Virus record (IMG/VR): IMGVR_UViG_3300044626_000051
Location: 1 to 31,149 of that record
DNA length: 31,149 bases
Source: a virus
Reading direction: 5' to 3' (one strand)
Position 1 is the stretch's first letter. Every line of letters begins with the position of its first letter. Of the stretch, positions 1 to 15,083 are shown piece after piece. The notes below the pieces were generated by a model. It saw nothing but the letters and a program-made list of their open reading frames with translations, had not been told where the DNA came from and did not search any database. The position numbers and the translations under genes are program-made.

Positions 1-2
1 TC

Positions 3-494
3 ATTTGGATTGACGGTTCCATCAGGATCACAAGTCCTAAATTTGTCGAGTACATGATTTCCCAGGCTGGCGATACGGTTGCAATGTTCCAGCATCCTTG
101 GAGAGATTGCATTTACGAGGAGGCCGAGGAGTCATGGAATATGAGAAAGTACGTCGATCAGCCGGTAAGACAGCAAGTTGAGCATTACAGGCAAATGGGG
201 TGGCCGGAGAAGGCCGGACAGGTTGCGACAGGCATTATGTGCTGGCATGGTGGTTATCTACGGTCAGATCACGTTGCTACGTTTCTGGATGCCTGGTGGA
301 CAGAAATCAAGGAATGGTCACTACACGATCAGATTGCGTTTCCTGTTCTAGCTCAGACTCACGGGATTGTTGTCAACGGTTGCGACAAACATCTCATGGA
401 TAACGAATATTTCCAGGTGGTTGCAGGCCACAGAATGGAGGGGTATGAAAAAATTACCGATTTTGATATGCACGACAGGATCGCCAAGCCTTGA
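3..494 (+). CDS. DUF616-like glycosyltransferase, 5'-truncated by window edge
   Basis: The frame is open from base 3, so the gene starts outside the window and only its C-terminal part (about 163 residues) is present. The piece carries W-I-D-G-S near its start, then MFQHPWRDCIYEEAE, the sequence KYVDQPV with a following YRQ.GWP, and WWTEIKEWSLHDQIAF. From memory these match the DUF616 (TOD1/MUCI70-type) glycosyltransferase-like family, which has the HP.RDCIYEEAE and DQI motifs. Its acceptor cannot be told. It overlaps the next gene by 50 bases in another frame. With two further glycosyltransferase-like genes in the window it could modify a phage or host surface sugar; that is inference. Confidence 0.72.
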   Translation: MWIDGSIRITSPKFVEYMISQAGDTVAMFQHPWRDCIYEEAEESWNMRKYVDQPVRQQVEHYRQMGWPEKAGQVATGIMCWHGGYLRSDHVATFLDAWWTEIKEWSLHDQIAFPVLAQTHGIVVNGCDKHLMDNEYFQVVAGHRMEGYEKITDFDMHDRIAKP

Positions 495-1137
495 AATCAC
501 GCTGTCGAGCATTAGCTTATACGCCAAAGAAGCGCCTGTTTATCTGTCGAGCAGGTCCGAGACAATGGACCCACGAGTTTACAAATGGCTACTCAACTCG
601 CAGAGTAACTTCGGTGACGCTTACAACAGGATCATGGACGATGCCTTCCAGCATTACGATGAAGTCATCATAGCTAACGACGATATATGTCTGACTCCTG
701 ATTCCTACAGGCTTCTTTGTGAGGATGTCCAATATCTGAAGGAAGCGGGGCATAAGGTCGGTGTTGTTGGGTGCAGGTCTGACTTCATCCTTGCGGAACA
801 AAACATTAGATATGAGTCTGGCCCAAGAGATGGGATCAGATGGGCTGAAGAACAGACGATCAAGGAAGTGTCTGTGATTGCGCCTATCTTTGCCTACGTC
901 TCAAAGGAGGCTTTTAGTCAGGTCAGGTTTCCGCCTATCAACTGGTTCTCAGATAACGTCTTTTGTCATACACTAACAGTATTAGACTTTAGGCATTTCG
1001 TTTCAAGGGCTTACGTTCATCACGCCGGATCTCAAACAGTCGGTAAGGATGACCGTAAAAACCTCATGGAGGCTTCAAAATGGATGTGGAAAAACGAGCC
1101 AGGGATAGCAAGGCACTACAGAATCCCTACCGAATGA
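445..1137 (+). CDS. GT2-like glycosyltransferase
   Basis: A 230-residue protein. I chose the ATG at 445 because GGAGGGG lies just before it and the protein then begins MKKLPILICTTGSP, the usual first beta strand of a GT-A fold; an upstream in-frame ATG at 367 has no such support. FGDAYNRIMDDAF leads to EVIIANDDICL (residues about 73-83), where the NDD resembles the metal-binding DXD region of family 2 glycosyltransferases. YVHHAGSQTVG near residues 204-214 resembles the C-terminal H.GS.T motif of GT2-like enzymes. The product and acceptor are unknown. It overlaps the DUF616-like gene by 50 bases and a small ORF at its 3' end, so all are probably co-transcribed. Confidence 0.7.
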   Translation: MKKLPILICTTGSPSLEITLSSISLYAKEAPVYLSSRSETMDPRVYKWLLNSQSNFGDAYNRIMDDAFQHYDEVIIANDDICLTPDSYRLLCEDVQYLKEAGHKVGVVGCRSDFILAEQNIRYESGPRDGIRWAEEQTIKEVSVIAPIFAYVSKEAFSQVRFPPINWFSDNVFCHTLTVLDFRHFVSRAYVHHAGSQTVGKDDRKNLMEASKWMWKNEPGIARHYRIPTE

Positions 1138-1211
1138 AGGTTCCTCCGGTTCCGATCAGGTACGACAGGAAGGTGGGTATCCCTATGCAACCTCCGAAAG
1201 GTAAAAAATGA
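1080..1211 (+). CDS. Small basic ORF, hypothetical (43 aa)
   Basis: A 43-residue ORF lying mostly inside the 3' end of the glycosyltransferase gene in another frame. Its ATG at 1080 has GGAGG about 7 bases upstream, and its stop overlaps the start of the next gene in an ATGA arrangement, as for most junctions here. The product is rich in Pro, Lys and Arg and ends QPPKGKK. A second in-frame ATG at 1134 overlaps the upstream stop (ATGA) and would give only 25 residues with a weaker site. No family recognised. The translational coupling at both ends is the main argument that it is real. Confidence 0.45.
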   Translation: MDVEKRARDSKALQNPYRMKVPPVPIRYDRKVGIPMQPPKGKK

Positions 1212-1597
1212 AGGGCTTGCTCTCACCTAAAGTCATGATCGTCATCAAGCAAAAAGAAGACGAAGAAAACGAGTGTCCGCTGCCGACCCAAGACGAGAAG
1301 CTCAACGAGGAAAACAAGCAGATCGCTAGGGAAGAGGGTATGTACGGTCCTGAACGAGAGGGCGATACTCAATTCTGGCGCGATCTAGGTGCAAAGTGGC
1401 GTATCTCTGCAAGCCAGGCTCAAGAGAGGCGTTGCGAGAATTGTGGATATTTCGACATGGAGATGCAGGATTGTCTACCTGAAGGTGTCGGGTACTGCCA
1501 CGAGTGGAACTTTATGTGTGCGCCTGAGAAATCTTGTATGGAGTGGAAAAGTGAAGAAAACGAAAGCGGAGAAGAAGATCTCCAAGGTGATGACTGA
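1208..1597 (+). CDS. Cys-rich small protein, putative metal or Fe-S binding
   Basis: A 129-residue protein with an acidic N-terminal half (KEDEENE, REEGMYGPERE) and a Cys-rich segment at residues about 75-113: CENCGYFD, then C, then GYCHEW, MCAPEKSC and MEW. The C..C..F....C...C...C....C..W pattern recalls small phage proteins with a high-potential iron-sulphur-like or zinc-binding fold, but I cannot decide which metal, if any. The tail is again acidic (SEENESGEEDLQGDD). The ATG overlaps the stop of the preceding small ORF. Its 3' end overlaps the next gene by 47 bases if that one begins at its GTG. Confidence 0.55.
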   Translation: MKGLLSPKVMIVIKQKEDEENECPLPTQDEKLNEENKQIAREEGMYGPEREGDTQFWRDLGAKWRISASQAQERRCENCGYFDMEMQDCLPEGVGYCHEWNFMCAPEKSCMEWKSEENESGEEDLQGDD

Positions 1598-1709
1598 GTA
1601 CAACAAGGGTAAGTTGCACTCTGGAAGCAAGAAGGGTCCGGTAGTTAAGAGCCGATCCCAAGCGACCGCGATAGCATTGGCAGAAGCTGGTGTGAAGAAG
1701 AAGAAATGA
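1551..1709 (+). CDS. DUF6496-like small basic protein
   Basis: A 52-residue very basic protein with HSGSKKGPVVKSRSQATAIA, which matches the core I remember for DUF6496, a family common in phages and Proteobacteria with no known function. I chose the GTG at 1551 with GGAGTGG upstream because the family usually has a short Lys-rich lead before the conserved core; an ATG at 1590 with AAGGTG close by would give 39 residues. Together with the next two genes it forms a run of Lys-rich mini-proteins. A virion or DNA-binding role is possible but only inferred from charge. Confidence 0.68.
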   Translation: MKKTKAEKKISKVMTEYNKGKLHSGSKKGPVVKSRSQATAIALAEAGVKKKK

Positions 1710-1861
1710 AAGGCTTATACGCAAATATTCACGCCAAGCGTGAACGCATAGCCAAGCAAAAGGCTGCGGGAAAGACTCCAGAGAAGATGCGTAAGCCTGG
1801 TAGTCCTGGTGCGCCAACTGCTAAGGCTTTCAAAGAATCAGCTAAAACGGCTAAGAAATGA
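1706..1861 (+). CDS. Small Lys-rich conserved phage protein (51 aa)
   Basis: A 51-residue ORF whose ATG overlaps the TGA of the DUF6496-like gene (ATGA) and whose TGA overlaps the start of the next gene, so it is coupled on both sides. The protein begins MKGLYANIHAKRERIA and continues with KMRKPGSPGAPTAKAFKES, ending KTAKK. I recall the KMRKPGS.GAPTA.AF pattern from other phage contigs, where it sits among structural genes without a function. It is almost entirely polar and strongly positive and has no membrane segment. Confidence 0.65.
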   Translation: MKGLYANIHAKRERIAKQKAAGKTPEKMRKPGSPGAPTAKAFKESAKTAKK

Positions 1862-2154
1862 CTGCAGCTTGGACTCGTAAGGAAGGCAAGAACGCCAAAG
1901 GTGGTCTTAACGAGAAGGGCCGGAAGTCTTACGAGCGTGAGAATCCTGGGTCTGACTTAAAGGCTCCTGTTAAGTCAGGCGATAACCCGCGTAGAGCGTC
2001 TTTTCTTGCGCGAATGGGTAACATGCCAGGGCCGGAGAGAAAACCCGATGGGAGCCCTACCAGACTGCTCCTGAGCCTAAAGGCATGGGGTGCAAGTTCC
2101 AAGGCTGATGCGAAAGCAAAGGCTAAGGCTATCTCGGCGAGGAACAAAAAGTGA
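1858..2154 (+). CDS. DUF6321-like basic protein
   Basis: A 98-residue basic protein beginning MTAAWTRKEGKNAKGGLNEK, with ENPGSDLKAPV and RRASFLARMGNMPGP following, then a long Lys/Ala tail (residues about 78-98) likely to be helical. The WTRKEG...GGLN.KGR.SY and SF.ARM.GM motifs fit the DUF6321 family as I remember it; function unknown. It starts inside the stop of the preceding gene (ATGA) and ends GTGA into the next. It is the third of three consecutive Lys-rich proteins. The K/A tail resembles those of histone-like proteins, but that likeness is composition only. Confidence 0.68.
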   Translation: MTAAWTRKEGKNAKGGLNEKGRKSYERENPGSDLKAPVKSGDNPRRASFLARMGNMPGPERKPDGSPTRLLLSLKAWGASSKADAKAKAKAISARNKK

Positions 2155-3518
2155 AGCGTAGAAAAGGACTGTTAGACGAGGAGAAGTTTCTCCCTCCGCT
2201 GCCTGAGCAACTACCGAGGGGCGTAAGTTCGCTGCCAGGTTACGGTCAGACAAGTCCTATCGCGCAGGGATTACTAGGGTTTACGGGCAGGCAACCCACT
2301 TACTCGGTGATGGACCCAGAGGCTCAGAAGATGTCTGAGGCTTACAGACTAGGCGAGCAAGCAAGTGTCGCTAGTCAGCTTTACGGGTCTGTGGCTCCGT
2401 TTGCGGTTGCTTCTTCGCTTAGTAAGTTAAACGCCTTGCCAGGGGCTGCTGTCTACAGAAAGTCAACGCCTACTGCTCCAGATCCATCTGTTGGCACTAG
2501 GTTTGAGCGAGAGTTTCTTGGCGGCTTGGCAGAAAGAAAGCCGATTGATCTTGAGCAGTACAGGGGAGCAAGCCTGATGGTTTTGCCGTGGGATAGCTCA
2601 AGTAGAAACTATCGAATTACATCTGTTTCGGATGAGCTTTTGCCAAGACCTGTCGTTACGCATGGTGGCTTTGATTACACAAGAGATCTTGAACATATAA
2701 AAGAAGGTATTGCTGGAGCTTCAAATCTCGGTATTGCAAAGAGAATTAGGGATAGAGATGCTGTCGCTAGAAGAGAAAACCTAGAGGCTGGAGGAACCGG
2801 AGAGGTTTTGCATGCGCCTATTACGATGGGCTCAGGATCAGAAAACTTCTCGGTGCAACCGACAGAGGTATTGCTTGGCCTGATTGATCGTGCAAACGTT
2901 TCAAAGGGCGTTATTGACGATCTCAATAAAGAGATTAGAGAGCTTAAGATATTCAAGGGAACTGGAGAATCTAGAAAGACGTTGCAGCCATTCAAAAACT
3001 TCCGCGGCGTTACTTCAGAAGAGGGAAGGGTTCAGCTTTACCGCGGGGGCGATGGTCTTGAATCAACAGAGGGCGAATTAAGAAAAGCTCTTGTTGGCGT
3101 AATGTCTAAGAAGAAGTTTCAAGAGCAATTTGGGTTTAATGCTGAAGATGTGTCCGCGGCCATAACAAGCCCGACTTTAGCTGGAGTTCCGAAAGGCTAC
3201 ATTGGTGACGCTTTGTTTTCGACCAATCCGGCCAGTGGAATGCACTTAAGGCCATCAAAAAACGCAACTTACAACACAGACTTTACTGGCGAATACGAAG
3301 GATCGCTTGGGTTAAGCCTACCTGTAGAAGTCCTGATGAAAAGGACGTTCGACAGGATTGCTCAAGAGCAGGCTGGTAAATCAGGCGACATCAGAAACAT
3401 GACTATAGGCGCATTAGAAAAGCGTAAGGAGGGTGTTTCTGAGATCATTGATGATTACATGCTCGATCAGTACGATAAGTATCTGAGGCAACAGAGAAGG
3501 CTAGGCTTACTCGACTGA
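2151..3518 (+). CDS. Putative virion-associated protein with polyvalent-protein-like domain
   Basis: A 455-residue protein, GTG start overlapping the preceding stop, with GAGGA upstream. The N-terminal 100 residues are Pro/Gly-rich. From about residue 138, GASLMVLPWDSSSRNYRITS leads into VVTHGGFDY, then APITMGSGSENFS (about 224-236), FQEQFGFNAEDVSAAITSPT, and near residue 380 YNTDFTGEYEG. This order recalls a domain I remember from very large phage polyvalent proteins and internal head proteins; it has no enzyme motif I can name. The stretch after about 2530 looks more AT-rich than its neighbours, which may indicate a different origin. The 3' end overlaps the antisense small gene by 12 bases. 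Confidence 0.5.
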   Translation: MKRRKGLLDEEKFLPPLPEQLPRGVSSLPGYGQTSPIAQGLLGFTGRQPTYSVMDPEAQKMSEAYRLGEQASVASQLYGSVAPFAVASSLSKLNALPGAAVYRKSTPTAPDPSVGTRFEREFLGGLAERKPIDLEQYRGASLMVLPWDSSSRNYRITSVSDELLPRPVVTHGGFDYTRDLEHIKEGIAGASNLGIAKRIRDRDAVARRENLEAGGTGEVLHAPITMGSGSENFSVQPTEVLLGLIDRANVSKGVIDDLNKEIRELKIFKGTGESRKTLQPFKNFRGVTSEEGRVQLYRGGDGLESTEGELRKALVGVMSKKKFQEQFGFNAEDVSAAITSPTLAGVPKGYIGDALFSTNPASGMHLRPSKNATYNTDFTGEYEGSLGLSLPVEVLMKRTFDRIAQEQAGKSGDIRNMTIGALEKRKEGVSEIIDDYMLDQYDKYLRQQRRLGLLD

Positions 3519-3665
3519 GTTTATGATGTTGCTTGCATGGAACTTAAGCATGTGAATGGCGTTTTCTAAAAACTCAACAAGTGCGTAGTCATCAAGTTTT
3601 AAGGCTTCGTCATCAAGGTCAAGGTTCATGCCTGATTCTTTTGTTTCTGTGATAATGATCTTCAT
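3507..3665 (-). CDS. Lone antisense small acidic protein (52 aa)
   Basis: A 52-residue ORF on the minus strand between plus-strand genes. Its ATG (complement of 3663-3665) has AGGAG 6-7 bases upstream, a better site than that of the terminase gene it diverges from. The product begins MKIIITETKESGMNLDLDDE and continues with AL.LDDYALVEFLENAIHML, an acidic, probably two-helix protein ending NIINSVE. No family recognised. It converges with the 455-aa gene (12-base overlap at the stops) and diverges from the small terminase gene over 84 bases that hold an inverted repeat. A regulator or an early gene is conceivable; nothing in the sequence proves it. Confidence 0.6.
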   Translation of the reverse strand: MKIIITETKESGMNLDLDDEALKLDDYALVEFLENAIHMLKFHASNIINSVE

Positions 3666-3684
3666 AGTAACTCCTGATAGACCT

Positions 3685-3713
3685 AAAATTGTATGAATTT
3701 TGAGCCCAAAATT
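3685..3713. promoter_or_regulatory. Inverted repeats in divergent intergenic region, possible operator
   Basis: AATTTTG (3696-3702) and CAAAATT (3707-3713) form a perfect 7-bp inverted repeat with a 4-base spacer. AAAATT at 3685-3690 is a third half-site that can also pair with AATTTT. The elements lie between the divergently read 52-aa gene and the small terminase gene. On the minus strand TACAAT within 3688-3694 resembles a -10 box overlapping the repeat. On the plus strand TTGGTT and GATAGT are 17 bases apart but poor matches. An operator or a divergent promoter is inferred, not shown. Confidence 0.4.
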
Positions 3714-3749
3714 GGTTGTTTTTACGCAACATGAGATAGTAAAGTAGAA

Positions 3750-4037
3750 ATGGAAACAACGAAGTGGATACCTCCAAACGCGGGAAACGGCAGGCCAAAG
3801 GGCTCGCCCAATAAGTCCACTGCCGCGGTGAGGGAAGCCATTGCAAAAATGGCTGAGATGAACGCTCCGAGGTTCGCAATGTGGCTAGATGAAGTGGCTC
3901 AGAAGAGCCCAGAGAAGGCTTGCGACATTTACCTGAGAGCAATCGAGTACCACATACCTAAATTAGCCAGGACAGAGGTAACGGGAACTGACGGTCAACC
4001 AGTTGCGATGCAGATCTCATGGGCGCAACCCGAATAG
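3750..4037 (+). CDS. terS: Terminase small subunit
   Basis: A 95-residue protein directly before the large terminase, overlapping it by 19 bases. The N-terminus has NAGNGRPKGSPNKSTAAVRE, the Gly/Arg/Pro/Lys segment seen at the start of many small terminases and related phage proteins, followed by helices (REAIAKMAEMNAPRFAMWLD) and KLARTEVTG, where such proteins often end in a T.V.G..G segment. Small terminases recognise the packaging site and feed DNA to the large subunit. There is no strong Shine-Dalgarno in front of the ATG (AGTAGAA only), so translation may be weak. Confidence 0.8.
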   Translation: METTKWIPPNAGNGRPKGSPNKSTAAVREAIAKMAEMNAPRFAMWLDEVAQKSPEKACDIYLRAIEYHIPKLARTEVTGTDGQPVAMQISWAQPE

Positions 4038-5275
4038 TCATCCCTTATGCGCCGAGGGAGCAGCAGCTAAAGATCCACAATGCGCTATCAGACAAGCGTT
4101 TTGCTGTTGTTGTCGCGCACAGACGTATGGGAAAGTCGGTAAGTGCTGTCAACCATCTCATTCGAGCAGCGATAGAAAACAACAAGGAGGCTCCGAGATA
4201 TGCGTTTATTGGGCCTACCTATTCCCAGACCAAGCGAGTTATCTGGGATTACCTCCTCAAATTTACCCAACCACTTAACGCCACTGCCAATATTGCGGAG
4301 CTACGGGTTGATTTCTGGAACAGAAGGATTCAGCTTGCAGGATCTGATAACCCAGACTCTCTGCGAGGACAGTATTTCGATGGCGTTGTATTCGACGAAT
4401 TTGGCGATCAAGACCCGCGTATCTGGTCGGAGGTGGTTCGTCCCGCCTTGTCCGATAGGATGGGATGGGCCTTATTCCTTGGGACCCCAAAAGGCGCAAA
4501 TCACTTTAAGACCCTGAGAGACCATGCAGCAGAGCATAACGACTGGGCTATGCTTGAGTTCAGAGCGTCAGAGACAGGTCTTATCCCTCAAAGTGAGCTC
4601 GATGCCGCCAGGTCAGAGATGGGGGACGACAAGTATTTACAGGAGTTTGAGTGTTCCTTCGACTCAGCCATCGAAGGTGCTTACTACGGGCAGCTTCTCA
4701 ATGAGCTACCGTCTGAAAGGTTCCATGACATCCCTGTAGATGGCATAGCCAAGACTTACGCAGCATGGGATCTAGGGATAGGCGACTCTACTGCTATCTG
4801 GGTCTGTCAGAGGGTGGGCTTAGAGACAAGGCTTATCGACTTTGTTGAGAATCACGGGCAAGGATTGGATTGGTATGTGAACTGGCTCAGGACGAACAAC
4901 TACGAGCTTGCAGAGCAATTACTTCCGCATGACGTACAGGTTAGGGAGCTAGGCTCAGGCAGATCGAGACTCGAACTTCTACAAGAGGCGGGGTTAAACA
5001 TCACAATCGTGCCAAGGATGGGCGTGGACGATGGGATACAGGCCGTGAGAAGGCTGATTCCTTACTGTTGGTTCGACCCTAAGACTAAGCGTGGAGTGGA
5101 CGCGCTAAGGAATTATCGGCGACAATACGACGATAAGCGTCAAGTTTACTGGGATAAGCCTCTTCACGATTGGGCATCTCACGCAGCAGACGCATTTCGG
5201 TATTTGGCGGTCGGGATGAATGAGACAACAAGTTGGTCCAAGCCTCTGAAACCTAACGTATCTTGGGTGGTCTGA
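4019..5275 (+). CDS. terL: Terminase large subunit (packaging ATPase/nuclease)
   Basis: A 418-residue terminase motor. Residues 34-40 (HRRMGKS) form the Walker A-like loop; VVFDEFGD (123-130) is Walker B with the catalytic Glu; LFLGTPKG (152-159) fits the coupling motif. The RNase H-like nuclease begins with AAWDLGIGDSTAI (248-260), whose Asp is the first metal ligand, and ends with HDWASHAADAFRYLA (383-397), which carries the last acidic residues. Length is at the short end for large terminases but both domains are complete. It precedes the portal gene by one base, the usual order. It cuts concatemers and drives DNA into the prohead. Confidence 0.96.
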   Translation: MGATRIVIPYAPREQQLKIHNALSDKRFAVVVAHRRMGKSVSAVNHLIRAAIENNKEAPRYAFIGPTYSQTKRVIWDYLLKFTQPLNATANIAELRVDFWNRRIQLAGSDNPDSLRGQYFDGVVFDEFGDQDPRIWSEVVRPALSDRMGWALFLGTPKGANHFKTLRDHAAEHNDWAMLEFRASETGLIPQSELDAARSEMGDDKYLQEFECSFDSAIEGAYYGQLLNELPSERFHDIPVDGIAKTYAAWDLGIGDSTAIWVCQRVGLETRLIDFVENHGQGLDWYVNWLRTNNYELAEQLLPHDVQVRELGSGRSRLELLQEAGLNITIVPRMGVDDGIQAVRRLIPYCWFDPKTKRGVDALRNYRRQYDDKRQVYWDKPLHDWASHAADAFRYLAVGMNETTSWSKPLKPNVSWVV

Positions 5276-5276
5276 A

Positions 5277-7244
5277 ATGGATGATGGTCGGCTAAAAGCA
5301 ATCCTACAAGGCGAGATCGACAACGCCATTGGTTTCTTAGAGACAGAGACCGTCGAGCAACGTAAGAACGCACTTACTGCGTATATGAGGGACCCATACG
5401 GCAACGAGGTCGAGGGCAGGTCTCAGATTGTTACGGGTGAGGTCGCAGAGGCTGTGGACGGGATGCTGCCTCCTCTCATGCGTTTGTTTACATCTGCGGA
5501 TCAGATCGGTGTGTTCGAGCCTGTAGGCCCAGGTGATGAGCCATTAGCAGAGCAGGCAACCGAATACTGCAATTGGGTGCTGATGAAGCAAAACCCAGGT
5601 ATTGCAATCATGCACGATTGGTTTAAGGACGCGATCCTTCAGAAGGTCGGGATCGTCAAGGCTTATTGGGACGACTCCATTTCGGTCAATAAGGAGCAGT
5701 ACGCAAACCTGACGGACGATGAACTTGCGATGCTTTTGTCTGATGGGACGATGGAGATCGCAGGTCAAGAGACAATAGAGCAAGAGATGGACGGGCAGAT
5801 CATGCGTGTCCATAACGTGGCTCTGATGAGAAAGACCAAGGCAGGCAGGGTCAAGATCGAGAATGTGCCTCCAGAGGAGTTCCTGATCTCTAAGGCAGGC
5901 AAGACCGTGAGAGACACGCCGTTCGTCGCGCATAGAAAGCTCATCACGAGGTCAGACCTGATTGCGATGGGGTTCGATGCCGAGATCATCATGAACCTGC
6001 CGGTATACAACGACCTAGAGTTCTCTGCCGAGTACATTGCAAGATACAACCGAGACGAGCAGCCCTTCATGGAGCCTAGTCTCGATAAGTCGATGCAGAC
6101 GGTTGAGGTGTTTGAGTGTTACCTAAAGACAGACTACGATGGTGATGGGATTGCGGAGCTAAGGCAGGTTTACTTCTCTGGGAACGAGATACTTGCAAAT
6201 GAAGAAACCGACTATGTTCCGTTCTACTCTATTTGCCCTATTCCGATACCTCATCGCTTTTTTGGGGATTGTCCTGCTGATCGTACAGTCGATCTCCAGC
6301 TTATCAAGACTACTGTAACGAGGCAGATGCTGGACAATATGTACCTTCAGAACAATACCCGAATGGGTGCTGTCGAAGGTCAGGTCAACCTGGATGACCT
6401 CTTAAGCGTTACGCCTGGTGGTGTGGTCAGGCTCAAGAATCCTGCTGCTCTAGTCCCGATACAAACACCTCCTGTCGGCCAGCAAGCCTTCCCGCTTCTT
6501 GAATACTTAGACCAGGTTCAAGCTAAGAGAACGGGTCTCACAGAGGCTTCCCAGGGCTTAGACCCCAACATCTTGCAGAACGTGACTGCCGCGGCAATTG
6601 CGGCGCTCACACAAGCATCACAGGGCAAGATCGAACTCATTGCTCGTGTTTTTGCTGAGACAGGTGTAAAAGACTTGTTCAAAGGACTCTTACATCTCTT
6701 ATGCAAGTACCAGGACAAGGCAGTCATCCTGCGGATGCGTGGGCAGTACGTCCAATACGATCCGAGAGAGTGGTCGAACCAATACGATGTCTCAGTGAAT
6801 GTGGGTCTTGGGACAGGCAACATCGAGCAAAAGATGGCCATGCTCTCAATGGTTCTCTCAAAGCAAGAGCAGATGCTCCAAATGTTGGGGCCAAACAATC
6901 CTTTAGTGTCGCTCTCGCAATATCGTGCAACGCTCGGAAAACTGGTTGAGGCGGCAGGGTTTGCGGATTCTGCTGAGTTCTTCAAGCCCGTAACACAAGA
7001 GGTCGATCAAGCCCTTGCCCAACCCCAACAACAAGGCCCAGATCCTGCGGTCCAGATGATGATGGCGCAGGCTCAAGCAGACATCGAGATCAAGCGTCAG
7101 AAAGCAATGGCCGACATCCAGCTTGCAAGAGAGAAGGCCATAGCCGAGTTGGAGCTTAAGAAGATGGAGTTCGAGGCCGAGGCTCAGATGAAGGCTATGA
7201 AGGTAGGCGCAGGCATAACCAGCAACATCGAGATACCAGGGTAA
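5277..7244 (+). CDS. Portal protein (P22-like / head-tail connector)
   Basis: A 655-residue protein right after terL. The N-terminal part has EGRSQIVTGEVAEAVDGMLP, typical of the P22-like portal family (S.vv...v.d.vd.i.P.L...F), and LMRLFTSADQIGVFEP after it. The middle has DISKAGKTV-type segments around FLISKAGKT and RRFFGDCPADR-like IPHRFFGDCPADRTVDLQ, where the portal wing and stem are expected. From about residue 590 onward the chain is Gln/Met/Lys/Glu-rich (MMMAQAQADIEIKRQ and following) and predicts a long coiled coil, a barrel-like C-terminus. Twelve copies would form the DNA channel at the capsid vertex. Confidence 0.93.
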   Translation: MDDGRLKAILQGEIDNAIGFLETETVEQRKNALTAYMRDPYGNEVEGRSQIVTGEVAEAVDGMLPPLMRLFTSADQIGVFEPVGPGDEPLAEQATEYCNWVLMKQNPGIAIMHDWFKDAILQKVGIVKAYWDDSISVNKEQYANLTDDELAMLLSDGTMEIAGQETIEQEMDGQIMRVHNVALMRKTKAGRVKIENVPPEEFLISKAGKTVRDTPFVAHRKLITRSDLIAMGFDAEIIMNLPVYNDLEFSAEYIARYNRDEQPFMEPSLDKSMQTVEVFECYLKTDYDGDGIAELRQVYFSGNEILANEETDYVPFYSICPIPIPHRFFGDCPADRTVDLQLIKTTVTRQMLDNMYLQNNTRMGAVEGQVNLDDLLSVTPGGVVRLKNPAALVPIQTPPVGQQAFPLLEYLDQVQAKRTGLTEASQGLDPNILQNVTAAAIAALTQASQGKIELIARVFAETGVKDLFKGLLHLLCKYQDKAVILRMRGQYVQYDPREWSNQYDVSVNVGLGTGNIEQKMAMLSMVLSKQEQMLQMLGPNNPLVSLSQYRATLGKLVEAAGFADSAEFFKPVTQEVDQALAQPQQQGPDPAVQMMMAQAQADIEIKRQKAMADIQLAREKAIAELELKKMEFEAEAQMKAMKVGAGITSNIEIPG

Positions 7245-7246
7245 TC

Positions 7247-8701
7247 ATGGCTACTTACAACGGCTATACAACGGACCAACTTAGGGCGTTTGTCGATCAG
7301 TATTTCTCAAACCCGAATAGCGCGGACATCCAGTATCTTGTCAACCAGGGTCTGATACCAAACACCAACCCTGATACGTTGCTCTACTTTGGCCTGACTA
7401 ATATGTTGGGCTTTAGTCCGAGCCAAGCACAGGCAGCGGTGTCGGATGTGTTCTCTGCTTCGTCTGCTCCTGAGCCAGGAACGCCTGAGCCTGTCTACGA
7501 ACCACCTCCGGTTTACGAGCCGCCTCCAGCGCCTCCTCCGGTCTATGAACCTCCTCCAGCGCCACCTCCGGTTTATGAACCTCCTCCAGTTTACGAACCT
7601 CCTCCGGTCTATGAGCCACCTCCGGTTGTAACGCCACCACCTGTTACAACGCCAACGATTACAGATGTAATCAATGCGGTAACTCAACCTGTTACTCCAA
7701 CGCTTGAGTCCTGGCAGAAGCTCGATGCTAGCGGGAACATCGTCAACAAAACGATGGCTGACTACACAATTGCCGAGATGATTCCGTATGCTCAGAACAT
7801 CATCGCCCAACAACAAGCGGCAGGGACGTATGTAACGCCAGCGCAATTCCAAGCGTTTGCCGCGCAGCAAGGCGTTCCTGAAGGCCAGATTCCGATGTTG
7901 ATTGCTGGCCTGACGTTCCCAACGGCTCCAGTTACACCAACAACTCCGACAACTCCAACGACCCCGACGACTCCAACAACACCAACAACTCCAACAACTC
8001 CGACAGGAACAAGACCGCTCTCTGCTTATACAAGCGCGGAGATGATTCCGTACATCCAAAACCTGCTCAACAGCAATCCGTATGCAACATCACAAGCGGT
8101 TAGGCAGTATGCGTTATCACAAGGTGTACAACCTGGTGTGATTGACGCGGCATTGTCTGGCGTTCAGATACCTACGGCCACCTTTTCTAACTTCACGGTT
8201 GGTGGAGGCAACACCAAGTTAGCAACACCGACCACGGACTTCTTTTACGGTGTCGGTCCTACTGAACAAGCTCCGTATATGTTCAAGTCCGGTGCTGCCG
8301 GATATACGCGTCTGTTACCTCAATCCTTAGAGTTTGGCGTTCCTGCTGTCACGGGAACAAAGCCTGCATTTATGCCTGGTATCTTCGATAAAGAGCAACT
8401 GCAAAAAAGTTATGAGGCTCAGACCGGAGCAACCTATGGCGGCGAGTCGGTTCAAGATCAGTTGCAGCAAGCAAGTTACAAAGGCGGCAAGATAACCGAA
8501 GAGAAGATTGCTTACGAGAAGGGCGGCAAGGTAAAGGGTCTGCTAGGCCCAAACCCTCCGACTCCAGATGATGGTTACGGAAGTCTCCAGGTCGGTGAGT
8601 ACGTCATCCGCAAGAAAGCGGTCAACAAATACGGCGAGGATTTCTTGAAAGCACTCAACGAATCACGGTTACCTAAAGACAAGGTTAAGAGTCTCTTATG
8701 A
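7247..8701 (+). CDS. Pro/Thr-linker repeat protein, putative structural
   Basis: A 484-residue modular protein. Three related helical segments are visible: residues about 5-65 (YTTDQLRAFVDQYF), about 171-222 (YTIAEMIPYAQNII) and about 260-308 (YTSAEMIPYIQNLL). They are joined by low-complexity linkers: six VYEPPP units (about residues 82-130) and eight TPT units (about 226-250). The C-terminus has GPNPPTPDDGYGSLQVGEYV and IRKKAVNKYGEDFL, a P.DG...L..GE.VI.K.AV.KYG motif I remember from phage structural proteins. It sits between portal and scaffold, overlapping the next start by ATGA. Role unknown; a flexible head-associated protein is the best guess. Confidence 0.6.
   Translation: MATYNGYTTDQLRAFVDQYFSNPNSADIQYLVNQGLIPNTNPDTLLYFGLTNMLGFSPSQAQAAVSDVFSASSAPEPGTPEPVYEPPPVYEPPPAPPPVYEPPPAPPPVYEPPPVYEPPPVYEPPPVVTPPPVTTPTITDVINAVTQPVTPTLESWQKLDASGNIVNKTMADYTIAEMIPYAQNIIAQQQAAGTYVTPAQFQAFAAQQGVPEGQIPMLIAGLTFPTAPVTPTTPTTPTTPTTPTTPTTPTTPTGTRPLSAYTSAEMIPYIQNLLNSNPYATSQAVRQYALSQGVQPGVIDAALSGVQIPTATFSNFTVGGGNTKLATPTTDFFYGVGPTEQAPYMFKSGAAGYTRLLPQSLEFGVPAVTGTKPAFMPGIFDKEQLQKSYEAQTGATYGGESVQDQLQQASYKGGKITEEKIAYEKGGKVKGLLGPNPPTPDDGYGSLQVGEYVIRKKAVNKYGEDFLKALNESRLPKDKVKSLL
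7489..7655 (+). repeat. Tandem VYEPPP-coding repeats
   Basis: Six VYEPPP units, two of them spaced by APPP, are encoded in tandem. Each uses variants of gtytaygarccncctcc, so DNA units are similar but not identical; the array looks purified at the protein level. Extended Pro-rich linker inside the structural gene. Confidence 0.85.
7930..8005 (+). repeat. Tandem TPT-coding repeats
   Basis: Eight TPT units in a row, encoded by nine-base units of the aca-cca-aca type with third-base variation. It forms the second linker in the same gene, between the second and third helical modules. Confidence 0.85.
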
Positions 8702-8928
8702 CGAAATGGGAGCGAGCCAAGGCTTTACTTGGCGATGAGTTTCTGCAAGAGGTCTTTGCCGAGTTGGAAAAAGACAACATCTTGCGTATCATCAACAGCA
8801 ATCCTGATGAGATTGACAAACGCGAAGAGGCTTACGGGTCGATTCGGGCAGTCAATCAGGTAAAAGCCCGTTTGGAAGCTATTGCCGCCGAAGGCGAGAT
8901 GGTGAAAAAACGGTTTCGTATATTTTGA
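8698..8928 (+). CDS. Small conserved phage protein (76 aa)
   Basis: A 76-residue charged, likely all-helical protein (MTKWERAKALLGDEFLQEVF at the start, VKARLEAIAAEGEMVKKRF near the end). Its ATG overlaps the stop of the Pro-rich gene (ATGA). Small helical proteins of this type often sit just before the scaffold in podovirus head modules; I recall similar sequences without a function. No metal or DNA-binding motif is visible. Confidence 0.65.
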   Translation: MTKWERAKALLGDEFLQEVFAELEKDNILRIINSNPDEIDKREEAYGSIRAVNQVKARLEAIAAEGEMVKKRFRIF

Positions 8929-8942
8929 ATTGAGGTTAGTTT

Positions 8943-9878
8943 ATGGAAGGCAGCAACCCGCAAGGGACTAGCTTGACAGTGGGACAGGCAGCAAATGCGT
9001 TCTTAGGGATGATGGGTGGCGGCGAACCTCCGCAGGAGCAAGTTCAAGACCAACCAGACGAGCAAGAGCTTGTTGCCAGTGAATCTGAGCCAGAGGAGTC
9101 TGGAGAGGAAGTTCAAGAGGAGGAACAGCGTTTCGTAGTCAAAGCAGCAGGCGAAGAACGCGAGGTGACCCTCCAAGAACTGATCGAAGGCTACCAAAAG
9201 GGTACGGATTACCACAAAAAGACTAATCAGCTTGCCGAGCAGAGAAAAACGGTCGAGGCCGAAAAAGCTGCAATCGAGCAAGCAAAGCAGGCGAGAGATG
9301 CTTACTCAGAGCGTTTGAAGGTGATGGATAACTTCCTGTCACAGCAGATGCAGGGTGAGGATATTGAAAGTCTGAAGGAAACCGATCCGATTGCTTATGC
9401 AGTCAAGGTCGCAGAACGTACGCAGCAAGAAAAGCAGTTGGCTCAATTACGCGCTGAACAGCAACGCATTGCTAGAGAGCAACAGGCCGAGCACGAAGCG
9501 GTGATGGAGAAGCGTCTTGTTGAGGAAGCTAAAAGGGTTGCCGAGGCAATTCCCGATTACGCGCATCCTGAGAAGGGTGAGAAGGTACGGTCTGAACTTC
9601 GGAGTTTTGCCAAGTCCATCGGGTATTCGGACGCTGAACTGGCAAATGCAACAGACTCTCGCGCTGTGTTGACATTGTGGATGGCAAGCCAGTACCAGAA
9701 ACTGCAAAAGGCCAAGCCTGGTGTGACCAAGAAGGTCGCCGAGGCTCCCAAGATGCTTAGGTCTGGGAACGCGACAGGTAAGACCATAGCCACAGAAGCT
9801 GCAAAACAGGACTTTGCGCGGCTGAGAAAGACGGGATCTCGTCAAGACGCTGCCAGAGTATTTGAACGATTCTTATGA
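8943..9878 (+). CDS. Capsid scaffolding protein
   Basis: A 311-residue protein directly upstream of the capsid gene, with GAGG upstream of its ATG. The first 60 residues are acidic and Pro/Gln-rich (QDQPDEQELVASESEPEESG), then RFVVKAAGEEREVTLQELIEGYQKG, and from about residue 95 to 210 the chain is Glu/Gln/Ala/Lys-rich and strongly coiled-coil. The C-terminus is basic (DFARLRKTGSRQDAARVFER), where scaffolds commonly bind the coat protein. Position, acidity, coiled coil and basic end fit a scaffold. The VTLQELIEGYQKG.DYHKKT motif is shared by many podoviral scaffolds as I remember. Confidence 0.85.
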   Translation: MEGSNPQGTSLTVGQAANAFLGMMGGGEPPQEQVQDQPDEQELVASESEPEESGEEVQEEEQRFVVKAAGEEREVTLQELIEGYQKGTDYHKKTNQLAEQRKTVEAEKAAIEQAKQARDAYSERLKVMDNFLSQQMQGEDIESLKETDPIAYAVKVAERTQQEKQLAQLRAEQQRIAREQQAEHEAVMEKRLVEEAKRVAEAIPDYAHPEKGEKVRSELRSFAKSIGYSDAELANATDSRAVLTLWMASQYQKLQKAKPGVTKKVAEAPKMLRSGNATGKTIATEAAKQDFARLRKTGSRQDAARVFERFL

Positions 9879-9892
9879 TTTAGGAGTTAAAA

Positions 9893-10849
9893 ATGACTGT
9901 TCCTTCAGGTACATTCCAGACCTTCACGGCTGTAGGCCAGCGTGAAGATTTGACTGATGTCATCTACAACATCAGCCCCACAGAAACCCCTATCCTTTCG
10001 TCGCTTGCTCGCACGAAGGCAACCGCTGTTTACCACGAGTGGCAGACGGATACCCTCGCAGCAGCAACCACCAACAACGCTCAGGTTGAAGGTGACGATG
10101 CAACGGCTGCAACCATCAGCCCAACGACTCGTCTTGGTAACTATACCCAGATCGTTGCTAAGACGATCCAGGTATCAGGCACGATGATGGCTGTTGATCT
10201 CGCAGGTCGCCGCGCAGAGAAGGCTTACCAGCTTTCTAAGGCTTCGCAAGAGCTTAAGCGTGACCAAGAGACGATCATCGCTGCTAACCAGGGGCGTTCT
10301 GCTGGCAACTCGTCAACGGCTCGCAAGATGGGTTCGTTGTTGTCTTGGCTCAAGACTAACTCGAACTACAACACCACTGATGGTGCTAACCCCACCACCA
10401 TCGGTGTTTCGACCCGTAGCGATGGTACGACCCGTACCTTCACCGAGGCAATCCTCAAGGATGGCGTTCAGCAGGTTTATACCTCTGGCGGCAGTCCTAA
10501 GATCCTCGTGGTTGGTCCTGCTCTCAAGCAGACGGTGTCTGCCTTTGCTGGTATCGCAGCACAGCGCTACATGGCTCCCGATAACGCTCCCACGACCATC
10601 ATTGGCGCGGCTGACGTTTATCTGAGCGACTTCGGATCGATCTCTGTTGTACCTGATCGTTTCGTCCGTAGCCGTGATGCGTTCATCCTTGACCCTGAGT
10701 ACGCAGCGATTGGTTATCTGCGTCCTTTCCAGACCAACGAGCTTGCAAAAACTGGTGACTCTGAGAAGACCCAGATTCTTGCTGAGTTCACGATGGAAAT
10801 GCGTAACGAAGCAGCCCACGGTATCCTCGCGGATCTGAAAACTGCCTAA
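9893..10849 (+). CDS. Major capsid protein (SU10 / DUF5309 family)
   Basis: A 318-residue capsid subunit with the strongest ribosome site of the region (TAGGAG, 7 bases from the ATG). The order SGTFQTFTAVGQREDLTDVI, YNISPTETPILS, HEWQTDTL, the central QVSGTMMAVDLAGR and RDQETIIAANQGR, and the C-terminal VPDRFVRSRDAFILDPEYAA are the marks of the DUF5309 / SU10 major capsid family (HK97 fold). Length is complete. A terminator directly follows, as expected for the most abundant protein. No maturation protease is visible nearby. Confidence 0.95.
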   Translation: MTVPSGTFQTFTAVGQREDLTDVIYNISPTETPILSSLARTKATAVYHEWQTDTLAAATTNNAQVEGDDATAATISPTTRLGNYTQIVAKTIQVSGTMMAVDLAGRRAEKAYQLSKASQELKRDQETIIAANQGRSAGNSSTARKMGSLLSWLKTNSNYNTTDGANPTTIGVSTRSDGTTRTFTEAILKDGVQQVYTSGGSPKILVVGPALKQTVSAFAGIAAQRYMAPDNAPTTIIGAADVYLSDFGSISVVPDRFVRSRDAFILDPEYAAIGYLRPFQTNELAKTGDSEKTQILAEFTMEMRNEAAHGILADLKTA

Positions 10850-10870
10850 GTTATAAACTGTGGTAAAAAG

Positions 10871-10898
10871 AAGGGAGGCGTAACAACCTCCCTTTTTT
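10871..10898 (+). terminator. Rho-independent terminator after capsid gene
   Basis: AAGGGAGG (10871-10878) and CCTCCCTT (10887-10894) form a perfect 8-bp stem with an 8-base loop, followed directly by further T residues. It lies 22 bases after the capsid stop codon and should stop or thin transcription into the tail genes. Confidence 0.92.
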
Positions 10899-10910
10899 GT
10901 TGCTCGCTAA

Positions 10911-10940
10911 GGCTCGTTAAGGCTCGTTAAGGCTCGTTAA
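10911..10940 (+). repeat. Three perfect 10-bp tandem repeats GGCTCGTTAA
   Basis: GGCTCGTTAA occurs at 10911-10920, 10921-10930 and 10931-10940. An imperfect copy (TGCTCGCTAA) precedes at 10901-10910 and a degenerate start (GGCTTATGAA) follows and contains the next ATG. Each junction reads TTAAGG, and the last one (TAAGG) lies 5 bases before the ATG at 10946, where it would act as the Shine-Dalgarno site. The array directly follows the capsid terminator. Confidence 0.9.
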
Positions 10941-10945
10941 GGCTT

Positions 10946-11233
10946 ATGAACACTAAGACTACATTCCACGCTACCGACGATCAGTTTGTATTCCAGAGAA
11001 CGCAAGAGATAACTGACATCGTCGAGCAGAACAAAGCCCTGTATAACGCCACAGACGAGCGTGAGCGATGGGGAGAGTGGACACGCTACGCGCAACTTCC
11101 CTTCGTTGTTGTTGATGACCTCAACGCCAAGGGCATCATGCGAGGGTTTGCGGTGATCGACGAAAAAAAATTCAGGGCGTGGATGAACGACCCAGAGAAC
11201 AGACACTTCAGGACGAGGCCAGGTAAAGTATGA
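10946..11233 (+). CDS. Conserved phage protein following the capsid gene (95 aa)
   Basis: A 95-residue protein, MNTKTTFHATDDQFVFQRTQ at the start, EQNKALYNATDERERWGEWT in the middle and FRAWMNDPENRHFRTRPGKV at the end. The pattern of a central .NK.L.n..d....g....a..P and a C-terminal F..W.NDP....frT matches a small family I remember beside phage capsid genes, function unknown. It follows the tandem repeats and overlaps the glycosyltransferase start by ATGA. It could be a minor head or decoration-related protein; that is inference from position. Confidence 0.65.
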   Translation: MNTKTTFHATDDQFVFQRTQEITDIVEQNKALYNATDERERWGEWTRYAQLPFVVVDDLNAKGIMRGFAVIDEKKFRAWMNDPENRHFRTRPGKV

Positions 11234-11895
11234 AAGTCGCTTTTTGCGTCCCATGTCGGGACACGATGATGACGGGAACGTCTTTTGATATGGCTCGATT
11301 GGCTGCGTATGACGGAGCGAATCGGGTCGGTAAACACGGTGGGGCTTTGTTGCTCTACACAGCGCCAGGTACGCTCATCTTCTCCCAACGCGAGTCTTTA
11401 GCGAAAGAAGCATTGGCTGATGGCGCGGAATACATCCTCTGGGTGGACTCAGATATGAGATTCCCCAAGAACACATTGGAACGTCTATTAGCTCACGGCA
11501 AACAAATCGTCGGGGTCAATGCGGTTACGCGGCGAAAGCCTGTATTGCCCACGGCCATAAACTTTCACCAAGACAAGGAAATCTTCGAGAAGATCGAGAG
11601 TCGGGGGAAGAAGGGTATCGAGGCTGTGACTGCTGTAGGTTTTGGGGTTGTCTTAACCCACAAGTCTGTGTTTGACGCTATGCCCCAACCTTGGTTTGAT
11701 GTAGTATGGGGGGCGGGTGGTCTGATTGGCGAAGATGTGCATTTTTGCGTGAAAGCCTTAGATCACGGTATTCAGACGTTCGTGGATCACGAATTGAGTC
11801 TTGAGATAGGACACATAGGGACGCACGAATATCGATGGAGCGATGTCGAATATGGCCCTAAACACTTACAGCGCACTGCAAACGACGATAGCTAA
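11230..11895 (+). CDS. GT-A fold glycosyltransferase within head-tail genes
   Basis: A 221-residue protein. MKVAFCVPCRDTMMTGTSFD is a GT-A-type N-terminus; ILWVDSDMRFPKNTLERLL (about residues 69-87) has the DSD motif (DXD, metal and sugar-nucleotide binding) seen in family 2-like enzymes. VGVNAVTRRKP and AVGFGVVLTHKSVF follow, then WGAGGLIGEDVHFCVKALD, the ED acid motif. The C-terminus has IGHIGTHEYRW. It is complete and probably active. It sits between the capsid and adaptor genes and overlaps the latter. Targets could be virion proteins or host surface; unknown. Confidence 0.8.
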   Translation: MKVAFCVPCRDTMMTGTSFDMARLAAYDGANRVGKHGGALLLYTAPGTLIFSQRESLAKEALADGAEYILWVDSDMRFPKNTLERLLAHGKQIVGVNAVTRRKPVLPTAINFHQDKEIFEKIESRGKKGIEAVTAVGFGVVLTHKSVFDAMPQPWFDVVWGAGGLIGEDVHFCVKALDHGIQTFVDHELSLEIGHIGTHEYRWSDVEYGPKHLQRTANDDS

Positions 11896-12472
11896 TTATC
11901 TCTCACGAGATGATCTTACTGCCGCGATCCCAGACTTCATCCAACTCGCAGAGATTCGACTCCGTAGAGATCTACGCCTGCGGCAAATGCTTACGCAAAC
12001 ATCGGTTACGGCGACCGGTGGAGTCTCGACAATTAACCTCCCTAGTGACTTCCTGCAAGCAAGGGATGTGTACGTTGACTCTGACCCCGACTTCCCTATT
12101 ACGTTCGCAACGCCGAGCATCTTTATTCGGAACGGTCGGACGAACCAAAGTGGTGTACCAGCTTTCTACACCATCCTTGGGTCTACGATTCAATTTGCCC
12201 CAATTCCTGACAGCAATCACGACATCAAGATCCTCTATTACGCGGCCCCTGCGTTTTTATCTACGTCAAACACGTCAAATCTCTGGCTTACGACCTGTCC
12301 GGATGCACTCCTCTACGGGGCGTTAGGCGAGGCTGAGCCTTATCTTATGAACGATCCCAGGCTACAGACCTGGGGTGCGCTTTATGATCGCGCTATTGCT
12401 GCACTTACGCGTTCAGACGAGGAAGGTCAGTATTCGGGTGTGCCTTTAACGATGACGTTGGCTAAACGATGA
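11852..12472 (+). CDS. Head-tail adaptor protein (SU10-type)
   Basis: A 206-residue protein if started at 11852 (MALNTYSALQTTIANYLSRD), which aligns best with the family start I remember; the ATG at 11843 adds three residues. GGAG lies about 11 bases before the chosen ATG. LTAAIPDFIQLAEIRLRRDL leads into a beta-rich middle (STINLPSDFLQARDVYV) and ends with DPRLQTWGALYDRAIAALTR. Helical N-terminus, beta insertion and helical C-terminus fit the adaptor that binds the portal and joins it to the nozzle. It overlaps the glycosyltransferase by 44 bases. Confidence 0.83.
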   Translation: MALNTYSALQTTIANYLSRDDLTAAIPDFIQLAEIRLRRDLRLRQMLTQTSVTATGGVSTINLPSDFLQARDVYVDSDPDFPITFATPSIFIRNGRTNQSGVPAFYTILGSTIQFAPIPDSNHDIKILYYAAPAFLSTSNTSNLWLTTCPDALLYGALGEAEPYLMNDPRLQTWGALYDRAIAALTRSDEEGQYSGVPLTMTLAKR

Positions 12473-13920
12473 GAGTCAACTTTGGTGAGTGGTTGCCGGA
12501 TCAACCAGGGGTAGCGGGTGCGCTGGTTGAGGCGTTGAACGTTATTCCTCAACAGGTGGGTTATGGCCCTTTATCTGCGCCTAGTGAATGGAGCAATGCG
12601 GCTTCAGAGTCGCTTAATCAGGTTGTGTCTGCGACTTCTACGGATGAGTCAAACACGGTCTTTGCGGGCGGCGAGACGAAACTATTCAAGCTAGGAACAA
12701 ACAGGAACCTAACGGACGTTTCTAAGGCTGGAGGTTATACAACCCCTTCGGATCAGAAATGGCGTTTCGCTCAGTTTGGCAACAGGCTGATTGCCGCTAA
12801 TGGCGGTGACAGGCTTCAGGGATGGTTATTAGGCACATCCACAGCCTTTGCAGACCTTGGTGCTGCTGCGCCTAAGTCAAGGTATGTAACGACGGTCAGA
12901 GACTTTGTGGTTGCAGGATTCAACAACGGAACAACGGTTTACCCCAATAGAGTCGAGTGGTGCGCGTTGGGTGACGAAACAAGTTGGGCACCTTCCGCTA
13001 CAACACAGGCTGACTATCAGGACATCCCAGACGGTGGGCATGTCAAGGGTTTGACGGGCGGTGAGTTTGGGCTTGTGTTTATGGATCGTGCGGTTGTCCG
13101 TATGTCCTACGTTGGAAGCCCTCTTGTGTTTCAGTTTGACACGATCTCGCGTGGTTTAGGGTGCATGGAGGCTGGATCTATCGTTCAGTACGCAGGGTCG
13201 AGCTTCTTTTTGTCTGATGATGGGTTTTATGTCTGCAACGGGCAGACTGTGCAGTCTATTTCCGTTGAGAAGATTGATCGTTGGTTCTTTAATACAGTAG
13301 ACATCTCGCAGTTGTCAACGATGTCTGCTGCTGTAGATCCTCTTAAAAACCTCGTTATATGGGCGTTTAAGACGGTAGACCAAACGACTGCTTTGCTTAT
13401 CTACAACTTCAATCTTTCTAAGTGGTCTCATGCTGAGGTTACGTTAGATTCGATTGCATCTTCAACGGCGATCACGACATCTTCCTCGTCTGGTCTCACG
13501 TTAGAGCAACTAGACGCATACGGGAGCATTGATACGCTACCTGCAAGCCTAGACTCTTTTGGGTATACGGTTACGTCTAACCTTCTTACAGGAACCATAG
13601 GCACAAAGATCGCAGCTTTCTCAGGGTCAAACTTAACGGCCAGCATTATTACGCCTGACCTTTCCATGAATGACATGCCTTCGGTTGTTACTTTGGTAAG
13701 ACCTGTCATTGACAGCGGTTCTTGTTCAGTACAGATCAACTCCAGAAAGCGTTTGAACCAACAGACAGACTTCACGGGTTCCACATACGCCTCGAACTCT
13801 GACAACAGGATAGGTCTACGCTCGGCAGGAACCTACCATCGTTTGAACGTCATTCCTTCTGGTGTCTGGACTTCCGCGGTTGGTTTGGATGTGACGGTTG
13901 TGCCGCAGGGTATGCGATGA
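12469..13920 (+). CDS. Tail nozzle / DNA-stabilisation protein
   Basis: A 483-residue beta-rich protein that overlaps the adaptor stop (ATGA). FGEWLPDQPGVAGALVEALN starts it, followed by repeated strand motifs such as FAGGETKLFKLG, WRFAQFGNRLIAANGG and RYVTTVRDFVVAGF, then VEWCALGDETSW and SSFFLSDDGFYVCNG, which suggest a beta-propeller-like fold. I recall this arrangement from the tail hub/nozzle or P22 gp10-like stabilisation proteins of podoviruses. Position right after the adaptor agrees. It would close the tail and hold packaged DNA. Confidence 0.72.
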   Translation: MRVNFGEWLPDQPGVAGALVEALNVIPQQVGYGPLSAPSEWSNAASESLNQVVSATSTDESNTVFAGGETKLFKLGTNRNLTDVSKAGGYTTPSDQKWRFAQFGNRLIAANGGDRLQGWLLGTSTAFADLGAAAPKSRYVTTVRDFVVAGFNNGTTVYPNRVEWCALGDETSWAPSATTQADYQDIPDGGHVKGLTGGEFGLVFMDRAVVRMSYVGSPLVFQFDTISRGLGCMEAGSIVQYAGSSFFLSDDGFYVCNGQTVQSISVEKIDRWFFNTVDISQLSTMSAAVDPLKNLVIWAFKTVDQTTALLIYNFNLSKWSHAEVTLDSIASSTAITTSSSSGLTLEQLDAYGSIDTLPASLDSFGYTVTSNLLTGTIGTKIAAFSGSNLTASIITPDLSMNDMPSVVTLVRPVIDSGSCSVQINSRKRLNQQTDFTGSTYASNSDNRIGLRSAGTYHRLNVIPSGVWTSAVGLDVTVVPQGMR

Positions 13921-14699
13921 TCTTCAGGACGCTACCTCCGTTTGGTGGCGATCAGCGAGCCGTTGCTGAGATTGTCCGCAATATCATGGACGGTAAGACG
14001 AACAACACCGGAACGGTGACGCTTGCCACAGGAAACGCCACTACGACCACGATTACAGACGCAAGGATAGGGGTAGAAAGCAAGATCATCCTTGTTCCCT
14101 ACTCTGCTAATGCCTATGCTGATTCGATCCCGTATGGCTCGTTTTACGACGTTAACGATCAATCTGCTGCAAGCACGACGACAGCGTATGCGATTACGTT
14201 TTCTAATACCGACCTGACGAACAACGTTTACCTCTCTAACTCAAGTCGGATTAACGTGAGGGCGGCAGGTAAGTACAACTTCCAATTCTCGATTCAGTTC
14301 GCTAACGATGACTCGCAGATCCAAGATGTAGATGTGTGGGTAAGAAAGAACGGAACCGATATTGCCGACTCAAACTCAAGATTCTCGATTGACTCTAAGC
14401 ATGGGTCGGTAAAGGGTCATGTCATTGCTGCGCTTAATCTCTTTGTAGACCTTGCGGCTAACGACTACATCGAGTTAATGTGGGCAACAAGTTCAACGCT
14501 GGTCATCATCGAGCACATCGCCGCTCAGACGAGTCCTACGCGACCTGCGACTCCTTCGGTGATTGCCACGATGCAATTTGTGGGCGGGTTTTCTAACGGC
14601 GGGGTTTACATCTCTTCGGTTACGAACGGGTCCGCGACGATTACGCATTTTCCAAATGCAACCTCTGATAAAACTTACGGCTATGTGGTGGTCGGATGA
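13917..14699 (+). CDS. Beta-rich tail-associated protein with jelly-roll-like domain
   Basis: A 260-residue protein, start overlapping the nozzle gene (ATGA). MIFRTLPPFGGDQRAVAEIV and NIMDGKTNNTG form a short N-terminal segment I remember from podovirus tail modules. A spacer with TITDARIGVESKIILVPYSA follows, and residues about 110-190 (AAGKYNFQFSIQFANDDSQI, VDVWVRKNGTDI, LAANDYIELMWA) look like a TNF/C1q-type jelly roll with alternating strands. The C-terminus has TATITHF-like repeats. It may be a trimeric spike or head-tail fibre anchor; no enzyme motif is visible. Confidence 0.6.
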   Translation: MIFRTLPPFGGDQRAVAEIVRNIMDGKTNNTGTVTLATGNATTTTITDARIGVESKIILVPYSANAYADSIPYGSFYDVNDQSAASTTTAYAITFSNTDLTNNVYLSNSSRINVRAAGKYNFQFSIQFANDDSQIQDVDVWVRKNGTDIADSNSRFSIDSKHGSVKGHVIAALNLFVDLAANDYIELMWATSSTLVIIEHIAAQTSPTRPATPSVIATMQFVGGFSNGGVYISSVTNGSATITHFPNATSDKTYGYVVVG

Positions 14700-15082: not shown

Positions 15083-15083
15083 T

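Follow-up and report, generated by a model that had tools for sequence, protein, structure and literature searches.

The DNA analysed here, referred to below as the window, is the 31,149-base virus record IMGVR_UViG_3300044626_000051. The region of interest lies between a 52-aa gene on the minus strand (p52) and the small terminase subunit gene on the plus strand (terS), whose start codons are separated by 84 bp, a spacing given in the preliminary description of this DNA and borne out by direct reading of the sequence. The features of the locus are provided in Table 1. Gene terS directly precedes and overlaps terL, and its product matched phrog_11043, a family of unknown function. Judging from the TerL sequence, the phage is placed near Methylophilales phage Venkman and the HTVC010P-like pelagiphages: the TerL of the window was 59–60% identical to those of Venkman and MW202481 and 43% identical to that of HTVC010P. 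Venkman EXVC282S (TerL 59% identical) and HTVC010P share with the window a portal gene downstream of terL, but they carry different genes upstream of it. Only three matches to the terS of the window were found among named phages, and neither Venkman EXVC282S nor HTVC010P was one of them. A blastn comparison of positions 3301–5300 with named phages gave no match, and the Rfam search returned none. Scans of positions 1–16000 were uninformative, with 6 promoter-like sites vs. 12.9 in shuffles and 14 terminator-like sites vs. 15.1 in shuffles.

Table 1. Features around the terminase genes, with their positions in the window
Feature	Position	Strand	Description
455-aa protein gene	2151-3518	+	Shared N-terminal ~91 aa followed by an exchangeable C-terminal domain
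Exchangeable C-terminal domain	2451-3515	+	About residues 101-455 of the 455-aa protein
p52	3507-3665	-	52-aa gene; candidate convergent partner of the C-terminal domain of the 455-aa gene
Region between start codons	3666-3749		84 bp between p52 and terS
Third half-site	3685-3690		AAAATT, followed by gtatg and then the palindrome
-10-like hexamer of p52	3688-3693	-	TACAAT (plus strand ATTGTA), 22 nt before the p52 ATG
Palindrome AATTTTG-AGCC-CAAAATT	3696-3713		Arms 3696-3702 and 3707-3713, spacer AGCC 3703-3706
Dyad GTTGY-N6-RCAAC	3715-3730		Here GTTGT-TTTTAC-GCAAC (GTTGTTTTTACGCAAC), 2 bp past the palindrome; predicted protein-binding site
terS, type 1	3750-4037	+	95 aa with GNGRPKGSPNKST; assigned as the small terminase subunit from its position
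terL	4019-5275	+	Large terminase subunit (phrog_2, E 2.2e-35)

The AATTTTG/CAAAATT palindrome and its conservation

The palindrome had been described as a perfect 7-bp inverted repeat with an additional AAAATT half-site, and this was confirmed in the sequence itself. Its pattern was found a single time in the window, even when up to three mismatches were allowed. When the 84 bp were dinucleotide-shuffled 4000 times, inverted repeats with arms of at least 7 bp and a spacer of at most 12 bp appeared in 204 of the shuffles (about 5%); in the actual sequence they were present in 5.4% of all 84-bp stretches and numbered 28 across the 31 kb. Therefore, the palindrome is real but statistically modest. 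Three of the only seven AAAATT/AATTTT hexamers of the window fall inside the 84 bp; the 4000 shuffles gave at least three such hexamers 11 times, a measure that was picked after the site had been seen.

For the comparison with relatives, 146 related viral loci were gathered via terS and terL and the DNA upstream of terS was examined. The palindrome was in place in only one other contig, the near-identical sister 3300035666_000225 (L001 and its copies), which was identical to the window across the 136 bp compared upstream of terS. Window and sister differed at 2 of 500 positions in 3300–3799 and at 0 to 21 positions per 100 elsewhere (1800–6999); full retention of the palindrome within this 500-bp stretch would also fit constraint. 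The exact 18-mer was found in eight viral stretches, of which six lie within coding sequence of unrelated phages (L148, L150–L154), one lies behind an unrelated gene (L155) and one is the sister contig (L149). The matches besides the sister were taken as chance.

The preliminary description had named absence of the palindrome from close relatives with conserved flanking genes as the observation that would refute its reading. This absence was found in L166, which has the same terS type as the window, a C-terminal domain 84% identical and a p52 58% identical to those of the window, and 66 bp between the start codons with neither AAAATT nor any inverted repeat with arms longer than 5 bp. It was found as well in the five other p52-bearing intergenic regions that were read (L158, L160, L163, L162, and L171), in which there was no AAAATT and no arm exceeding 5 bp. 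The palindrome is most likely lineage-specific and probably arose by chance in an AT-rich spacer. It falls within the −35/spacer zone of the p52 promoter and might instead be a true lineage-specific operator, in which a repressor or activator dimer would bind AATTTTG/CAAAATT together with the third half-site, cover the −35 zone and control p52 and perhaps also terS. In favor of such an operator are the three half-sites within 29 bp, the location of the palindrome immediately ahead of TACAAT, where the promoter has no recognizable −35 box, and its identity in the sister contig. We nevertheless consider it unlikely, given that the palindrome is missing from L166 and the five further p52-bearing regions, that a repeat of this kind is expected in about 5% of comparable stretches and that the 31-kb window has no second copy.

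The p52 gene and the cargo slot upstream of terS

Sequence comparison indicates that p52 is a real gene. Homologs were present in all nine of the other contigs with the C-terminal domain (L157, L158–L163, L166, and L171), that is, in 10 of 10 including the window, and in every case they were convergent with the gene of that domain and overlapped its end by 9–12 bp. Several of these contigs are near-identical and the set comprises five clearly distinct p52 proteins. A profile scan recovered p52 in seven contigs, all of them among those carrying the C-terminal domain. By codon-level comparison, p52 is under purifying selection: the differences between the window and L166 were distributed as 15/12/31 over the three codon positions, with an excess at the third, and L158 vs. 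L162 gave a dN of 0.09 and a dS of 0.90. It must be noted that L162 and L171 have a terL of a different kind, as seen by reading.

The minus-strand TACAAT reported previously is present and is supported as the −10-like hexamer of p52. In the eight aligned p52 upstream regions, two of which are those of the window and its sister, TA-N-A-N-T, GGAG and the ATG were invariant, and the relatives had TATAAT or TAAACT 21–22 nt before the p52 ATG. As located by hand, TTGCGT is found 16 bp before TATAAT in L158, L160, and L163, while TTGCAC or TTGTGT is found 16 bp before TAAACT in L162 and L171; no −35 box like these was present in the p52 promoter of the window. p52 would be transcribed leftward from a promoter of its own. 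Its product had no match among named phages nor in Pfam or PHROGs, and the 55-aa homolog of L171 showed a weak match to phrog_24566 (E 0.0035, function unknown). The structure model of p52 (pLDDT 86.7) consists of a beta hairpin and a long helix, and its comparison with solved structures gave nothing with an E-value below 2.

The N-terminal ~91 aa of the 455-aa protein are common to many relatives, in which they are joined to several C-terminal families. Among the 36 loci with an insert, the window included, these families comprised 20, 9, and 3 members, and four loci stood alone (L015 being a short insert only). The slot is located between a DUF6321 gene (1858–2154 in the window) and terS, an arrangement also observed in L002, L008, L012, L013, L033, and L112. 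It is sometimes devoid of any gene, with 8–9 bp left. ART-PolyVal scored above the cut-off in three of eight slot proteins scanned, and LPD23 in one. The third C-terminal family, weakly related to the domain of the window (E 7e-6, a single pair), is followed by a small same-strand ORF of about 63 aa. The domain of the window itself had no Pfam or PHROG match and no PDB match of note, its structure model reached a pLDDT of 31.7, and the genome-contig search with it yielded no relative. A remote relative was found in the named phage C72C1 (22.6% identity, E 1e-3), where it is followed by same-strand small genes with no evident likeness to p52. An assignment of the domain as an ADP-ribosyltransferase, based on LYRGG/LFSTNP, was considered and found no support; the ART matches belong to other occupants of the slot.

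Because no domain or structure matched and the model of the C-terminal domain was poor, the proposed effector and partner roles are read from the genomic setting, which suggests a partner or immunity function for p52. In this arrangement, the C-terminal domain would be a cargo exchanged beside the terminase genes and p52 would neutralize or assist it. With respect to the layout of polymorphic toxins, a variable C-terminus on a conserved N-terminus was found, and a small adjacent gene was present in 10 of 10 cases, convergent rather than co-directional. By analogy, the slot fits the polyvalent-protein theme and its layout resembles that of the MuF toxins. In the case of the polyvalent proteins of phages (PMC5512222), cargo-type genes likewise lie beside the portal/terminase module, and some occupants of the present slot match ART-PolyVal (PF18760) and LPD23 (PF18838); the domain of the window, in contrast, matches no described domain and has a convergent 52-aa partner. 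The MuF polymorphic toxins of temperate phages (PMC5576092) also combine a variable C-terminus with a shared N-terminus, a location in the packaging region and a small ORF right behind, but no MuF domain was found in the window and its small gene is on the opposite strand. In addition, the related phage HTVC010P is described as exclusively lytic (PMC8163748), whereas the MuF toxins belong to temperate phages. The C-terminal domain and p52 may represent a so far uncharacterized candidate effector-partner pair beside terminase genes, in an unusual opposite-strand order.

A conserved dyad ahead of terS

A second repeat, the 16-bp dyad, follows the palindrome. GTTG-N8-CAAC was present at most 60 bp upstream of terS in all 63 distinct type-1 terS loci. 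This count derives from 64 rows after loci with identical 260-bp keys had been dropped; only L149 did not score, and as it is the sister contig in reverse orientation it was left out. There were 17 distinct dyad 16-mers, in which the arms never varied and all eight inner positions did, position 5 being restricted to C or T and position 12 to A or G. Exactly one copy was found in 13 of 15 records searched, some of which may be fragments, and the reversed-pattern control gave 0. The other two records, G001 and G002, had a second copy. In G001, the two dyads were not explained by one genome being repeated, as the sequences differ and the terS frame is broken after ~17 residues; a chimeric contig is more likely.

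The dyad was kept whichever gene abuts it, also where the upstream gene belongs to another family. The preceding gene usually ends 3 bp ahead of the dyad or within it, and even a dyad that shares sequence with this stop codon was retained (GTTGCACAGTAACAAC). By contrast, none of the 15 relatives with a swapped terS (terL at least 85% identical) had the dyad within 700 bp of terL. Under the same 700-bp rule it was present in 3 of 20 more distant loci (L126, L127, and L129; terL ~67–69% identical). In L158, L160, and L163, with homologous terS and terL, the GCAAC half alone remains.

Some further observations were made in these loci. In the terS swap (L085, L087, L094, L097, L098, L100, and nine more), an unrelated protein is substituted for the first ~73 residues; the C-terminal ~22 residues of terS are retained and terL is >90% identical. 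In L162 and L171, whose terS genes differ from each other, GTTTA-N6-TAAAC near p52 takes the place of the GTTGY dyad in the same 5-6-5 layout. More distant relatives (L125, L126, L127, L132, L138, L141, L142, and L144) showed a hairpin-like CCGAA...TTCGG or CCCGATGGCCCGAAAGGAATCGG around the terS ribosome-binding site. The ends of two contigs near the dyad (L004 and L017) were considered as packaging ends and not retained as such, given that they could just as well be assembly breaks where a variable region begins or ends.

Proposed function of the dyad

We interpret the 84 bp as a compact region of divergent control, in which the dyad is conserved and from which a genuine small gene, p52, diverges. 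From its sequence and distribution, we read the dyad as a putative protein-binding site of the terminase module. A sequence-specific DNA-binding protein, which would be dimeric, is favored because RNA folding of the dyad region gave no signal beyond that of shuffled sequence (z 0.12 to −1.41) and the arms showed no compensatory changes. Of the proposal that an operator or protein-binding site lies between the divergent genes, the predicted protein-binding dyad thus stands, at GTTGY-N6-RCAAC, and the placement at the palindrome does not. Taken as a whole, the explanation comprising a divergent control region, an unconserved palindrome, a protein-bound dyad and p52 as a partner is, in our judgment, slightly on the probable side.

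The likeliest binder would be TerS, which would thereby start packaging or control its own gene. TerS is the first candidate because the dyad is near single-copy, adjoins terS and is lost when terS is swapped. Even so, this assignment is held tentatively and falls somewhat short of probable, since linkage alone could give the same pattern, the dyad lying ~20 bp from terS and co-swapping being explicable in that way. TerS proteins in general recognize packaging initiation (pac/cos) sites (PMC6854486). Like those sites, the dyad is near terS; it occurs once in most records and goes with the terS type, which close linkage would also explain. A single copy beside terS fits a packaging site, but it also fits a gene-specific operator. 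That the dyad might be the TerS-recognized packaging start of a widespread HTVC010P/Venkman-like phage group, situated at the edge of the cargo slot, is put forward as a possibility that is as yet doubtful. If it were true, each exchanged effector, with or without a convergent p52, would have to preserve the packaging-start dyad. The feature to watch is the short adjacent dyad and not the eye-catching AT palindrome; the function of the dyad is open to a bench assay that needs a single protein and a single oligonucleotide.

The most probable alternative is that a phage or host regulator binds the dyad as a transcriptional operator, for instance as a class-II-type activator site for p52 where that gene is present, and that the dyad is no TerS site. 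With its 16 bp in a 5-6-5 layout, the dyad resembles the sites of the CRP/FNR family. In the window and in L166 it is located upstream of the −10-like hexamer of p52 with 21 bp between the two, and its center falls at about −41.5 as counted by hand, which is the position of class II CRP/FNR sites. Against this, the dyad is equally conserved in many phages that have no p52, and it is lost together with the terS swap. Moreover, in the largest group the terS ATG is only 2 nt after the dyad with no −10 between, a gap too short for a promoter that would serve terS; control of the late operon from this site, as originally suggested, is not upheld for the same reason. We regard the operator as rather unlikely. 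A mere cassette-exchange sequence, kept by recombination and bound by no protein, would account for exchange boundaries located within 3–12 nt of the dyad in most loci, but fixed arms around eight varying inner positions are unlike either a homology arm or a crossover core, making this quite improbable. Least credible of all is that the dyad forms a small hairpin in the mRNA and acts on translation where terS begins: it does lie 2–20 nt ahead of that start and some loci have no clear Shine-Dalgarno sequence there, but it would offer only four pairs with an 8-nt loop, and the folding result and the 17 variants with no compensatory changes speak against it.

Elsewhere in the window, [KRQ]GLL was over-represented in the predicted proteins (8 occurrences vs. 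0.6 expected, a number reached in 0 of 1000 shuffles), the motif having been chosen post hoc. The genes concerned start at 1208, 2151, 5277, 7247, 16479, and 18002, and the motif may serve as a targeting signal for proteins that are packaged. In addition, a strong hairpin of nine pairs is located behind the major capsid gene (10871–10894) and is followed, at 10902–10944, by 4.3 copies of the 10-bp tandem repeat GCTCGTTAAG.
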